This document shows, in pieces, positions 11,584-27,034 of a stretch of DNA of 64,000 nucleotides (position 1 is the stretch's first letter; every line of letters starts with the position of its first letter). The stretch is from positions 54,385 through 118,384 of the forward strand of contig ONKG01000011.1 of the NCBI GenBank assembly GCA_900318375.1, written 5' to 3'. Made by a program: the position numbers and the translations under genes. The DNA comes from an uncultured Lachnospiraceae bacterium. Its GTDB lineage: Bacteria; Bacillota; Clostridia; Lachnospirales; Lachnospiraceae. The notes under the pieces were generated by a model. That model was not told the DNA's origin. It saw only the letters and a list, made by a program, of their open reading frames with translations, and did not search any database.

Positions 11584-12360
11584 ATGTATAATTATCAACA
11601 AAATGAAAACACGAGTGACGTCCAAAATGCATTTTCACAAAAAAGAAACGCATCGGACGTTACAGTTATGCGCGCGGAGATGCCTTACGAGCGTTTCCTT
11701 GCCTTCGGCGCATCCAGCCTGACAAATGCAGAGCTGCTGGCGATTATTCTCCGCACCGGAACGAAGGAAAAAAATGCCACGCAGCTGAGCCGTGAAATTC
11801 TGGGGTATTACGAAAAGGGCTCGACTGAGCTGTCGACGCTCCACCGCCTTACCCTGGAGGATCTCAAGACCATTCCGGGCATCGGCGAGGTTAAGGCTGT
11901 CAAGATCCTTTCTCTCGCGGAGATCTCCAGGAGACTGGTACGTGAGCGCGCAGCAAGCCGTCTTGTCTTCAGCTCACCCTCTGCTGTCGCCGATTACTAT
12001 ATGGAACAGATGAGGCATCTGGAGACGGAAACGGCGATCCTGGTTCTTTTGGACAACAGGATGGCGCTTGTGCGGGAGGAGGTCCTGTCACTGGGAACCG
12101 TCAACTGCACCCTGCTCTCGCCCAGAGAGATTTTTCTCCGTGCCCTGCGCTGGGGGGCTGTCAATATCATGCTTCTGCACAATCATCCCAGCGGTGATCC
12201 GACACCCAGCGAAATGGATAAGGACATTACGGAACGGATCTGCAGGGCGGGACAGCTGCTGGGCATCCAGCTGATCGATCATCTGATCATAGGAGATCTC
12301 AGCTATACAAGCCTCAGAGAATACGGATGCATTCCCGATTGTATTCCCATGGATGCGTGA
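11584..12360 (+). CDS. radC: RadC family protein (JAB/MPN domain)
   Basis: A 258-residue protein with an N-terminal helix-hairpin-helix region (LKTIPGIGEVKAVKI) and a C-terminal JAB domain carrying the metal-binding HNHPSGDPTPSEMD motif near residue 199. It is historically called a DNA repair protein, but its biochemical role in genomic RadC proteins is unclear. ATG 11584 gives a 28-residue leader before MRAEMPYERF; the second Met is an alternative start. In many Clostridia radC heads a cluster with mreBCD, which is absent here: the next gene is the PBP2 gene after a repeat-filled gap. Confidence 0.93.
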   Translation: MYNYQQNENTSDVQNAFSQKRNASDVTVMRAEMPYERFLAFGASSLTNAELLAIILRTGTKEKNATQLSREILGYYEKGSTELSTLHRLTLEDLKTIPGIGEVKAVKILSLAEISRRLVRERAASRLVFSSPSAVADYYMEQMRHLETETAILVLLDNRMALVREEVLSLGTVNCTLLSPREIFLRALRWGAVNIMLLHNHPSGDPTPSEMDKDITERICRAGQLLGIQLIDHLIIGDLSYTSLREYGCIPDCIPMDA

Positions 12361-12402
12361 ATCCCGTAAAGTTTTTGATATAGATTTATTGGATAAAGAA
12401 TT

Positions 12403-12623
12403 ATTGGATAAAGATATATTGGATGATGTAAAGGTCAAAAGGTATCCAATGGCTCTGAGTCTCGTCAAGCTGCACAAACAGCCGAAGGGCCTTGGCGAGC
12501 GGCCGGTACTTGGCCGCTGAAGCGAGGGCAGAGCGAGAGCGTGCCCAAGGCGTTTGTGCAGCTTGACGAGACGGTGTTCCCTTAGCCACCTTTTGACCTC
12601 AATATCATTGGATAAAGATATAT
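12403..12623. repeat. 168-bp cloverleaf-like palindromic element flanked by 17-bp direct repeats
   Basis: The 386-base gap between radC and the PBP2 gene is filled by nested inverted repeats. The outer arms 12432-12443 and 12588-12599 are a perfect 12-bp pair; 12460-12479 and 12552-12571 a perfect 20-bp pair; 12489-12495 and 12545-12551 a 7-bp pair; 12498-12504 and 12512-12518 form a terminal hairpin; 12526-12530 can pair with 12542-12546. A 17-bp direct repeat (ATTGGATAAAGATATAT) flanks it at 12403-12419 and 12607-12623, inside an AT-rich tract with further partial copies. The palindrome is GC-rich, unlike its flanks. It has no coding capacity; it could be a non-autonomous mobile element or a structured RNA. 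Confidence 0.85.
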
Positions 12624-12746
12624 GGCAAAAAACCTGATTTAGATCGTTTGTGATATATATTTTTGCATAAAGATATTTTATGATAGTGTTGTTTTTCGGA
12701 TAGTGTGATTTCTACATTTCAGACACATGGTTACAGGAGAAGCGTT

Positions 12747-15700
12747 TTGAAAGAACCATCCAGGTCACAGAGCAGACAAAGTGCTGACAGACTGAATATT
12801 GACAAACAGAATAAGAGGTCCGGCCAGCAGATCAGTGAACGGGCCAGAAGGAGCGGAAGGATCAGATCTTATATTCTTGCCGCACTCAGCATCGTCCTCG
12901 CCGGCGTTCTGATTTTCCAGCTCTATACACTGCAGATCCTCAGAGGTGAGGAATTCCAGAAGGAGTTTCAGAGCCGCATCCGGCGCACGGTTGTCGTCCG
13001 CGCAAAGCGCGGAGCGATCCGGGATGTAAACGGCAAGATTCTCGCGGAGACTGTTTCCACCTACAATATCACTATGAACGACCTGACGGATGATTCTACG
13101 GATGATAATAAGCTGCTCAACGACAGGATCAGTGAAATCATTCAGATTGTCAGCGATAACGGCGATATCGATAAGATGGTGACGAATTTCAGCATCGAGC
13201 TGATCGGCGGCAGCTTTTTCTTCAAGGATATGGGGCAGACCGCCAAAAACCGCTTTCTGGCCGACGTCTATGGCTATGCGGATCCTGCCGATATGCCTCA
13301 GGAGTATTTTGACAAAACTGCGGCTGATGTCATCTCGGATCTGGCTTCCCGGTACGGTATCAGCATTACCGGTGATGATATTGAGAACAGGAAGACTCTT
13401 CTGCAGATGGTCATTGCGCGGTACAACCTCAGTCTCAATTATTATCAGAAATATCTTTCTACAGTTCTGGCAAAGGATGTCTCCGATAAGACCGTACAGG
13501 AGATTGAAGACAGATACAACTCGGAGGAAGACGGAATCCAGATCGAAGAGGAACTGGTCCGCAGATACTATGACCCGGAGTTCTTCAGCAATATCATCGG
13601 CTATACCGGTGAAGTATCGTCTGACTTCCTGGAAGAGAACACCGAAACCGATGAGTACGGTCACCTGATCTATCGTGAAGGTGACACTATTGGCTATACG
13701 GGGATTGAAGCCTCTCAAGAGCAGGTCCTGCACGGACAGAGCGGTCAGAATACTTTCAATGTGGATAATATCGGCCGTGTCACCGATGACGCAGTCGATG
13801 AAAGCCAGCTTCCGGCAAATCAGAAGTCCTATGCGCCCATTGATGGCTGCGACGTTACACTTACCATAGACAGTGATCTTCAAAAAGCCGCATACCGGAT
13901 CATAGAGAAGAATCTACGCGATATAATCCTCGGAAAGCTTCGCGATTCTATTTATGATCAGGTGATCTCCGAAGATGATGACGGAAATTCCATTGTTATC
14001 CCGATCAGCAATGTCTATACCTCCTGCCTGTGCAATGTCATTGACAGCACACATTTCACTTCGGAAGAAGCCAGTGATACCGAGAAGGAGGTTCTTGCCA
14101 GTCTCAAGAGCTTCCGGCGCCATCGCTCCGAGGATATCATGAGTGAGATCCGGGACGGCCGGAACAGCTGGGAAGATCTTGACCTGGAGATGCAGGCCTA
14201 TCAGACACTTCTGGCCAAGGCACTTTTTGACTACGGAATCTTATCCAGTGAAGAGGCGGAGAGCGGCAGTATTGCCGACAACGCTGTATATCAGCAGTGG
14301 GATGATGGTACAGTCTCTTTGCACGATTTTGTGACGGAGGCTGTCTCCAGAGGCTGGATCAATAAGGACAGCCGCTTTATTGATCCCGGATTGTCCCAGT
14401 ACGACGCGGTCATGGAGTTTTTCGAAAGAGTCATCGGCGCGGGCGACGATTCCCTCAACGACCGCGACATGCGCAACGCGTTTTACAAATATCTGATCAT
14501 CAACTATGAAGTCACTGGCGACCAGGTCTGTCAGATCCTTCTGGATCAAAAACTCGTTAAGATCAGTGATGAGGAGAAGGAGAGTTTTGATTACGAGTGG
14601 GGCGAGAGCGCCTTCACATTTATGTATAACCGTATTCATGACATGGACCTGACTCCCGCCCAGCTCCACCTCTACCCTTCGACAGCCTCTGTTGTGGTCA
14701 CCGACCCTGAGACGGGGGATGTCAGAGCCATGGTATCCTATCCCGGATATGACGCAAACCGTATCAATGACCAGGCATATTATCAGAAGGTCCTCGATGA
14801 CCCCGCCAATCCCCTGCTCAACTACGCGACACAGCAGCTGACCGCTCCCGGTTCCACCTTCAAGATGGTCACTGCCACAGCCGCCCTGGGAGAGGACGTC
14901 ATCGGCCTGAATGACAAAGTCAATTGCAAAAAGAAAACTTCCTTTACAAAGGTAAAAGAGGATCCAAACCCTCCCAAATGCTGGATCTATCCGAAAAAAC
15001 ACGGAAAGCTGAATATGGAGGGAGCGATCGCCAATTCCTGCAACATGTATTTCTATGAGATGGGATATCGTCTCGGAACGGACGATGACAATACTTACAA
15101 CAGCAATTACGGAATTGAACGGATTCAGAAATATGCTGCCATGTACGGACTGGACGGTACTTCCGGTGTGGAAGTCAGCGAGTCCGAACCGACCCTCCTT
15201 TCTTCGGATCCTATCCGGGGAGCCATCGGTCAGGATACCAATGCCTACTCGACCGCAAGTCTGGCCAGATATGTTTCGGCAATTGCCAACGGGGGAACTG
15301 ACTACCGCCTGACACTGATCGATAAGATCGGAACAAAGGATGGACAGGAAAGCAAACACGAAAAGTATATAGATAATACGATCAGCCTCGAAAGCAATGA
15401 GTGGAATGCGATCCACGCAGGTATGCGCCGTGTGGCAACAGGCTATTCCGCGTTCAATGTTCTCTGGGAGCATCCTGTTGCAGGCAAGACGGGTACAGCT
15501 CAGCAGACCGGCATGCCGGACAACGCGCTGTTCGTCGGCTACGCGCCCTATTATCTGGAGGACGCGTGGAATGCAGAAGAGATGTCCCAGCAGGACAAGA
15601 TTGCCCTGGCTGTGCGAATTCCCAATGGCTATTCGTCTTCCTATGCTGCTCAGCTGGCTTCGGATGTCATAAGGGTCTTCTATGATCCGGATGCGCTTGA

Positions 15701-15749
15701 CGAGATCGTCGACAGTGTTATTTTGAACCAGGGCTCTTCGAACGACTGA
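12747..15749 (+). CDS. mrdA: Penicillin-binding protein 2 (class B, MrdA type)
   Basis: A transpeptidase of the elongation machinery, anchored by one N-terminal membrane segment (ILAALSIVLAGVLIFQLYTL). The catalytic motifs are SxxK in GSTFK near residue 703, SxN in NSCN near 764 and KTG in GKTGTA near 914. At 1000 residues it is long: about 260 residues of acidic sequence (roughly 380-640) sit between DSDLQKAAYRII and SVVVTDPETGDVRAMV. I chose TTG 12747 because AGGAG at 12735-12739 lies 7 nt upstream; a GTG at 12705 is in frame but has no ribosome site. A RodA-type gene follows, its usual glycosyltransferase partner. Confidence 0.92.
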   Translation: MKEPSRSQSRQSADRLNIDKQNKRSGQQISERARRSGRIRSYILAALSIVLAGVLIFQLYTLQILRGEEFQKEFQSRIRRTVVVRAKRGAIRDVNGKILAETVSTYNITMNDLTDDSTDDNKLLNDRISEIIQIVSDNGDIDKMVTNFSIELIGGSFFFKDMGQTAKNRFLADVYGYADPADMPQEYFDKTAADVISDLASRYGISITGDDIENRKTLLQMVIARYNLSLNYYQKYLSTVLAKDVSDKTVQEIEDRYNSEEDGIQIEEELVRRYYDPEFFSNIIGYTGEVSSDFLEENTETDEYGHLIYREGDTIGYTGIEASQEQVLHGQSGQNTFNVDNIGRVTDDAVDESQLPANQKSYAPIDGCDVTLTIDSDLQKAAYRIIEKNLRDIILGKLRDSIYDQVISEDDDGNSIVIPISNVYTSCLCNVIDSTHFTSEEASDTEKEVLASLKSFRRHRSEDIMSEIRDGRNSWEDLDLEMQAYQTLLAKALFDYGILSSEEAESGSIADNAVYQQWDDGTVSLHDFVTEAVSRGWINKDSRFIDPGLSQYDAVMEFFERVIGAGDDSLNDRDMRNAFYKYLIINYEVTGDQVCQILLDQKLVKISDEEKESFDYEWGESAFTFMYNRIHDMDLTPAQLHLYPSTASVVVTDPETGDVRAMVSYPGYDANRINDQAYYQKVLDDPANPLLNYATQQLTAPGSTFKMVTATAALGEDVIGLNDKVNCKKKTSFTKVKEDPNPPKCWIYPKKHGKLNMEGAIANSCNMYFYEMGYRLGTDDDNTYNSNYGIERIQKYAAMYGLDGTSGVEVSESEPTLLSSDPIRGAIGQDTNAYSTASLARYVSAIANGGTDYRLTLIDKIGTKDGQESKHEKYIDNTISLESNEWNAIHAGMRRVATGYSAFNVLWEHPVAGKTGTAQQTGMPDNALFVGYAPYYLEDAWNAEEMSQQDKIALAVRIPNGYSSSYAAQLASDVIRVFYDPDALDEIVDSVILNQGSSND

Positions 15750-26780: not shown

Positions 26781-26987
26781 GCATCTTTAACGAATAGTTG
26801 GCGTCAAAAAATGACGCCAACTAATTCGTTAAAGATGCTGTTTTTCTTTTGAAAATATAACCGGCGTCAAAAAATGACGCCAACTAATTCGTTAATATAA
26901 CCGGCGTCAAAAATGACGCCAGCTAATTCGTTAAAGATGCTGTTTTTCTTTTGGATATATAATTGGCGTCATAAAATGACGCCAATT
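26781..26987. repeat. Array of four related TTGGCGTCA-A/T loop-TGACGCCAA hairpins
   Basis: Four hairpins share the arms GGCGTCA and TGACGCC around a 4-5 base A-rich loop, with arms starting at 26800, 26863, 26903 and 26964 (spacings 63, 40 and 61). The first is extended into a stem of about 26 bp (26781-26838) and the fourth into an 11-bp perfect stem (26961-26987). The linker CTAATTCGTTAA recurs after each, and AAAGATGCTGTTTTTCTTTT follows the first and third, giving them terminator-like T-runs. The array fills the space between convergent genes ending at 26585 (+) and 27035 (-). No open frame is present. Confidence 0.88.
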
Positions 26988-27034
26988 AATTCGTAAAATA
27001 TGCAACTAAATATGCAACTGTATATTTGTATTTA

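Follow-up and report, generated by a model that had tools for sequence, protein, structure and literature searches.

The palindrome that lies between radC and a PBP2-like gene in the 64,000-nt stretch of Lachnospiraceae DNA analysed here (the window) is one copy of a multicopy mobile element, and its interior belongs to a conserved, covarying fold that recurs within differently bounded palindromes in many genera of the family. We consider it probable that this is a MITE-like element situated in a tandem repeat, moved by an IS1182-like transposase and carrying a conserved folded module that acts in cis, and that the window copy is a deleted passenger. The conserved core is the new part of the finding, being absent from Rfam and from the literature searched: within a coverage outside which most subscription papers and preprints fall, and which included the accessible parts of PMC8632094 and PMC2267715, no description of the element or its core was found.

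The initial annotation had recognized at this position a 168-bp, cloverleaf-like palindrome with nested arms of 12, 20, 7 and 7 bp, flanked by a 17-bp direct repeat. The palindrome is real: nested inverted repeats are present, and positions 12403-12623 fold as RNA at -107.9 kcal/mol (z -10.2), a value equalled by none of 200 shuffles. All the arms were found, namely the 12-bp arms AGGTCAAAAGGT/ACCTTTTGACCT (12432-12443 and 12588-12599), a 7-bp pair AGCGGCC/GGCCGCT (12498-12504/12512-12518), the other 7-bp pair GCCTTGG/CCAAGGC (located by eye) and the perfect long pair, which however measures 21 rather than 20 bp. The predicted fold is not a cloverleaf but a rod bearing one hairpin at its side, and the element is 186 bp in length, extending 9 nt further on each side; its limits were fixed by comparison with other copies, in which flush duplications place the start, the end and a TGG on either side as listed in Table 1. 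The DNA fold of the element (z -10.0) and the RNA fold of its minus strand (z -10.1) are equally strong, so that stability alone selects neither a strand nor a type of molecule. The window has no Rfam hit at the gathering score; at a lax threshold the stretch retrieved rli52 and SPRY4-IT1_2, and eight core loci retrieved MIR1512 (on a palindrome) and SNORD94, all below gathering and unrelated. No T-run following a hairpin, as in an intrinsic terminator, was seen by eye 3' of the element.

Table 1. Coordinates of the element, its parts and its neighbours in the window.
Feature	Position	Strand	Basis or remark
Whole element, MITE-like, 186 bp	12423..12608	+ (core strand)	Limits common to other copies
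Covariance-model match to core	12465-12567	+	85.6 bits
Left terminal inverted repeat ATGATGTAAAGGTCAAAAGGT	12423..12443	+	Comparison with other copies
Right terminal inverted repeat, reverse complement ATGATATTGAGGTCAAAAGGT	12588..12608	-	3 mismatches to left one
Target duplication TGG, left copy	12420..12422		Flush repeat
Target duplication TGG, right copy	12609..12611		Flush repeat
15-bp tandem repeat array, insertion target	12377..12424, continued 12607-12623		Tandem Repeats Finder and joined flanks
Inner arm, 5' strand of long perfect stem	12459..12479	+	
Inner arm, 3' strand of long perfect stem	12552..12572	+	
Conserved core, 26 nt deleted relative to copy L007	12480..12551	+	Deletion junction 12520/12521, alignment to L007
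CGGTAC, 5' half of core stem	12504..12509	+	Partner GTACCG absent from window copy
GC-GAGA-GC mini-hairpin	12533..12540	+	
radC, upstream gene	11584..12360	+	ORF; name from initial annotation and by eye
PBP2-like gene, downstream	12705..15749	+	ORF, tblastn; name from initial annotation; start codon at 12705 or near 12747

The 17-bp direct repeat (ATTGGATAAAGATATAT, at 12403 and 12607) is also present, but as part of the 15-bp tandem array that the element interrupts. When the flanks of the element are joined at TGG an uninterrupted 15-bp array results, which dates the direct repeat to before the insertion; judged by eye, loci L009 and L021 resemble this one. Elsewhere in the window (26800-26994) lies a different tandem array, with a 102-bp unit bearing short GGCGTCA...TGACGCC inverted repeats.

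That the palindrome is a non-autonomous mobile element, as had been suggested, is supported by its many copies, their common ends and short target duplications, and the vacancy of the same site in relatives. Interrogation of the window's own genome with positions 12420-12610 returned 112 BLAST matches, many of which are palindrome arms matching each other. Among 40 loci fetched (30 from these matches, 10 added), a script requiring both ends delimited 32 bounded elements, the other eight loci, some at contig ends, showing one end only; 9 and 11 further bounded elements were delimited in genomes G008 and G010, respectively, from 13 loci each. Elements in these three genomes range from 68 to 255 bp. 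Flush direct repeats of 3-5 bp adjoin 47 of the 52 copies (33 of 3 bp, 12 of 4 bp and 2 of 5 bp; 5 have none), a count that leaves out one G014 element with a 2-bp flush repeat and one duplicate reading in L060. As a control, the left flank of each copy was combined with the right flanks of the others, and flush repeats appeared in 245 of 2652 combinations (9.2%), and when the limits were slid by one base or more a 3-bp repeat remained in 0-4 of the 52. The terminal inverted repeats are 21 nt long, those of the window matching each other at 18 of 21 positions, and the end pattern ATGATGTNNAGGTCAAAAG with up to 3 mismatches gave 97 matches, compared with 8 for the reversed control. The 186-bp element has no transposase of its own; the overlapping ORFs do not exceed 129 aa, and the longest of them runs antisense through radC. 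On its inverted repeats, target duplications, small size and many copies, we file the element as a MITE.

Compared with a 212-bp copy of the same genome (L007), the window copy differs by seven substitutions and a single gap of 26 nt, which takes away GTACCG and half of a variable hairpin. Since the window's genome is a metagenome-assembled genome (MAG) in 193 contigs, 82% complete, such short deletions internal to a repeat could in part be assembly errors. By a sequence test, the GTACCG half is kept in only 17 of the 52 copies bounded by inverted repeats, so that, after insertion, a copy can often do without the core.

The site itself is vacant in relatives. A search of 61 same-genus genomes located radC in 55; 30 loci, the window's included, were fetched. 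In the ten closest relatives that have PBP2 next after radC, the two genes are -46 to 125 bp apart, as against 386 bp in the window, and all ten lack the element; in more distant relatives PBP2 overlaps or is undetected by tblastn. Together with the few differences from the longer genome copy, this vacancy fits the recent insertion proposed by the initial annotation, and a single copy without compensatory changes, which would have spoken against both mobile element and functional RNA, is not what the searches returned. In five of these more distant loci (L367, L373, L376, L377 and L379) the DNA after radC resembles by eye the start of mreB; as the gaps of relatives contain no element, whether mreBCD is lost or displaced does not depend on it.

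A candidate source of mobility resides in the window's genome (G000). On contig C93, two such ends, separated by about 1.95 kb, enclose a 536-aa protein in which DUF772 and DDE_Tnp_1_6 score above Pfam cut-offs; it matches the NCBIfam IS1182 model (NF033551) at E 1.7e-39, although its 136 bits fall below the cut-off of 270. The left end of this unit agrees with the MITE end at 18 of 18 nt, its right end is doubled in tandem with 2 mismatches in each, and no target duplication is visible around it. Its gene is the only full-length IS1182-like copy in this genome; the transposase has matches at E 1e-30 or better in 10 of 37 genomes, mostly confined to the first 140-170 residues. From this gene and its matching ends we infer that an IS1182-like DDE transposase moved the element. 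Related N-termini occur in other settings. In same-genus genome G016, a frame on the minus strand (L130:1-2022) combines a DUF772 transposase-type domain (residues 65-126) with glycosyl hydrolase family 2 domains, and looks like an IS1182-like transposase N-terminus fused to a beta-galactosidase-like enzyme; frames of 1218-1340 aa with N-terminal transposase matches are present in G004, G005, G012, G015, G019 and G020.

In two genomes, G023 and G017, the query matched through its interior only, and inspection showed the same core seated within other palindromes. This core, of about 100 nt, comprises a long outer stem, which in most copies has a bulged A, then a short stem, C-U-U, a stem that is interrupted by a CU bulge and continues as CGGUAC/GUACCG, UU, a variable hairpin and UA; the 3' strand bears a GAGC-GNRA-GCGU mini-hairpin. 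In 20 cores from seven genomes, aligned by MAFFT without structure and compared with a structure named from copy L007, 31 of 42 pairs have changed on both sides and 5 are invariant, counts that come from related copies; covariation is 0.441, against 0.156 in shuffled and at most 0.123 in slid alignments. For 80 distinct copies it reaches 0.873, against at most 0.124 when slid, in an alignment fitted to the structure. With the mini-hairpin anchored on both sides and in the 3' half, 128 of 138 distinct cores have a GNRA loop (GAAA 50, GAGA 42, GGGA 27, GCAA 8, GGAA 1), the remainder showing other loop words (4) or a loop that was not recognised (6); by a looser count, 23 of 80 and 4 of 74 rows lack the loop and some words are non-GNRA. 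In the helices of two alignments (80 and 74 distinct rows, related and placed by the model), G-U combinations number 137 and A-C combinations 55, an excess that favours selection on one strand, be it RNA or single-stranded DNA.

The suggestion that the element is a structured RNA is partly borne out by the conservation and covariation of the interior and by its GNRA loop; the interior may act as RNA or as single-stranded DNA, and no promoter signal was detected. With a simple matrix, a weak test, the best promoter score on the 5' side of 71 copies was not above that of other sides (p 0.30). The orientation of 68 copies relative to neighbouring ORFs is mixed (19, 19, 17 and 13 over four classes), which rules out a cis-regulatory RNA as the main reading.

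A covariance model of the core matched 18 of 61 relatives, comprising 18 of 37 same-genus genomes and none of the 24 that belong to other families; each carrier genome has between 1 and 33 (or more) matches at E 0.01. Broader searches used strict filters with up to eight candidates scored per genome, so that their counts are lower bounds, and their samples overlap. In an even sample of the order, the core occurs in at least 63 of 392 genomes and at least 32 of 174 genera, all of the window's own family; in the class sample, in at least 11 of 391 genomes, again all of that family; and in the phylum sample, in at least 5 of 398, four of the family and one genome of another class with three core matches (best E 8e-9). 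An exact pattern run against 84,980 named genomes retrieved 69 stretches, 68 from Lachnospiraceae MAGs (one a Butyrivibrio) and one from a Quinella MAG, where transfer or misbinning could be responsible. Outside Lachnospiraceae, core-like copies reach 53.3 bits in L255 (Quinella sp. 1Q5 MAG) and 45.5 bits in G1220 (another class); transfer, misbinning and an older origin are all candidate explanations. The same exact pattern had no match in viral contigs, and the sole viral contig retrieved by a second pattern (L427) is not matched by the covariance model. One core query gave no blastn match in plasmids and phages, an insensitive search for so variable a sequence.

The palindromes that enclose the core differ widely. 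Copies in G023 have outer arms in common (TGAGTCA...GGGGACAGGTACGCTGACTCA), those of G017 each have their own arms, G031 and G395 contain several copies with common arms and the long ends GGGGCTGTCGCATTATAC and TTAGGCGTTTGCGAAAC, copy pairs in G331 and G372 have yet other common ends, and G000, G008 and G010 have ATGATG ends; at least five types of end therefore carry the core. Among 15 copies in genome G061, the arms are no more alike (0.58) than when shuffled (0.55), the cores are alike at 0.73 against 0.58 shuffled, and the two arms of a single copy match each other at 0.84. Flank words of 7 nt or longer in this genome did not exceed shuffles, save one 8-mer in three copies that equals the shuffled maximum. 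Eleven of the 15 have an orthologue in the sister species G098, and for these pairs mean identity is 0.82 and 0.81 in the arms, 0.94 in the core and 0.76 and 0.92 in the flanks (arms versus core, p 0.014; arms versus flanks, p 0.64). The core is thus constrained, while the arms drift about as fast as their flanks yet stay paired. In base-by-base alignment, some orthologue comparisons contain more broken arm pairs than compensated ones.

Four G061 copies lack a counterpart in G098. One (L328) differs from the corresponding locus (L347) by a clean 183 bp, with no duplication and no palindrome at the empty site; for L314 the base of the stem persists in G098; for L332 a 3' part of the element persists, indicating loss from G098; the fourth is L331. 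The copies that flank one gene in both sister species are absent from 28 other orthologous loci; of these, one contains a copy at another place in its fetched stretch and one gives a doubtful 12-bit match.

Core copies often occur as inverted pairs facing head to head, with between 29 and about 1000 bp separating them (L271, L273, L274, L276, L268 and others); in L271 the two copies have most of an arm in common, with matched changes on both sides. No transposase was seen between the members of 12 such pairs; judged by eye, the intervening gene is deacetylase-like in L264 and L265, whose spacing differs from the 29-462 bp found in most of the other pairs, and L272 contains sugar-nucleotide genes. 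Palindromes lacking the core, with TTGCGAAAC ends as in core-bearing elements, were also encountered (G395:C21:36022-36073, G395:C25:62071-62123, G325:C5:10027-10078 and G325:C27:18080-18127), and two similar ones reside in G000 and G018.

In the mechanism that we propose, a MITE-like, non-autonomous element would have moved into the 15-bp tandem repeat between radC and PBP2, the putative mover being the IS1182-like DDE transposase encoded by G000:C93, the sole complete gene. The folded core would act in cis as a structure of a single strand, either RNA or transiently single-stranded DNA, that a transposase or a host factor may recognise, and it may favour the spread or survival of its carrier palindrome. 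An internal deletion of 26 nt has removed half of the central core stem from the window copy, which is probably a passive passenger. The most likely role of the core in general is that of a structure which works in cis and helps palindromic elements to spread or survive.

A broader proposition, which we entertain tentatively, is that the core defines a new mobile class of structured nucleic acid, RNA or single-stranded DNA, which either moves into palindrome tips or has been taken up repeatedly by unrelated palindromic transposons of Lachnospiraceae, its arms changing yet staying paired. It is unlikely, in our judgement, that many loci express the core as an RNA that acts in trans or processes itself, as a small RNA or a ribozyme-like domain, with mobility secondary. 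Such a role would accord with the strong covariation, with conservation of the GNRA class of loop rather than of one sequence, with the excess of G-U over A-C on one strand, with the greater conservation of core than arms between sister species and with the orthologues of 11 of 15 copies; it is opposed by the lack of a promoter signal or an Rfam relative, by mixed orientation, by the presence of a copy pair in only the two sister species among 30 orthologous loci of one flanking gene, and by internal deletion of most bounded copies in three genomes.

We also doubt that the core is itself a mobile unit inserting into the tips of palindromes, whose own transposition then copies core and arms together, a process that would explain why arms differ from copy to copy. 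The dissimilar arms and similar cores of G061, the five or more end types and the core-less palindromes with the same ends (two sites each in G395 and G325, similar ones in G000 and G018) would be expected from it, and the accessible text of PMC5678879 reports inverted repeats as targets of IS1272, of the IS1182 family, and cites some members that target palindromes. The two core-less sites of G395, however, differ in their break points, as internal deletions would; the cleanest occupied and empty pair (L328 versus L347) has no palindrome at the empty site; and orthologues reveal arms diverging in place around a core that stays.

Long palindromes tend toward correction to perfect ones, and an ordinary MITE, its palindrome maintained solely through template-switch correction of hairpins and its core devoid of function, would account for arms that change yet remain self-complementary. 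The same correction would erase the CU bulge, the side mini-hairpin and the bulged A, all of which persist in many genera, and the core is conserved more than the arms; we regard this explanation as quite improbable. A scar of mreBCD deletion, as the initial annotation had contemplated, or an element that regulates from the gap between radC and PBP2, is suggested by position and almost certainly wrong, given the small, element-free gaps of the ten nearest relatives with this gene order and the presence of the same element at dozens of other loci.

The reading that we prefer, a MITE-like element with a cis-acting folded core, can be set against known systems. MITEs are usually regarded as empty shells needing only their ends. 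The element resembles them in being short, intergenic and multicopy, in lacking a gene of its own, in its terminal inverted repeats and short target duplications, and possibly in having ends in common with a transposase-bearing element (identical over 18 nt on the left, with 2 mismatches on the right); it departs from ordinary MITEs, the interiors of which are remnants or filler, in that its interior is a covarying fold common to differently ended palindromes. Integron attC sites, which are acted upon by an integrase, have conserved core sites at their outer ends; here, by contrast, conservation lies in the tip and the outer arms are variable. Like the REP/BIME/REPIN repeats associated with RAYT (Y1) transposases, the copies are intergenic, palindromic, multicopy and sometimes arranged as inverted pairs, but each is a single hairpin of 130-200 nt with unique arms, not a repeat of 20-40 nt. 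MRSC-65-2, as described in the accessible part of PMC11109978, likewise has a covarying stem, dozens of copies per genome, an orientation inconsistent with neighbours and an undecided RNA or DNA form; it is, by that description, a single long stem with a UYCCGG repeat, whereas the core has a side mini-hairpin and a CU bulge, and no UYCCGG in its consensus. The C93 transposase, with its DUF772 and DDE domains, is like the IS1182 family; unlike new insertions of IS1272, which the accessible text of PMC5678879 describes as lacking target duplications, the elements here have duplications of 3-5 bp.

In the present elements, compensatory changes have preserved a folded interior in many genera of a major gut and rumen family, with ends and arms that vary. 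The covariance model offers annotators a tool for a repeat lacking in Rfam. Should movement or survival depend on the fold, a factor so far unrecognised would be expected to read it, and the fold would offer a means of asking why certain palindromes persist in bacteria despite the instability of palindromes.
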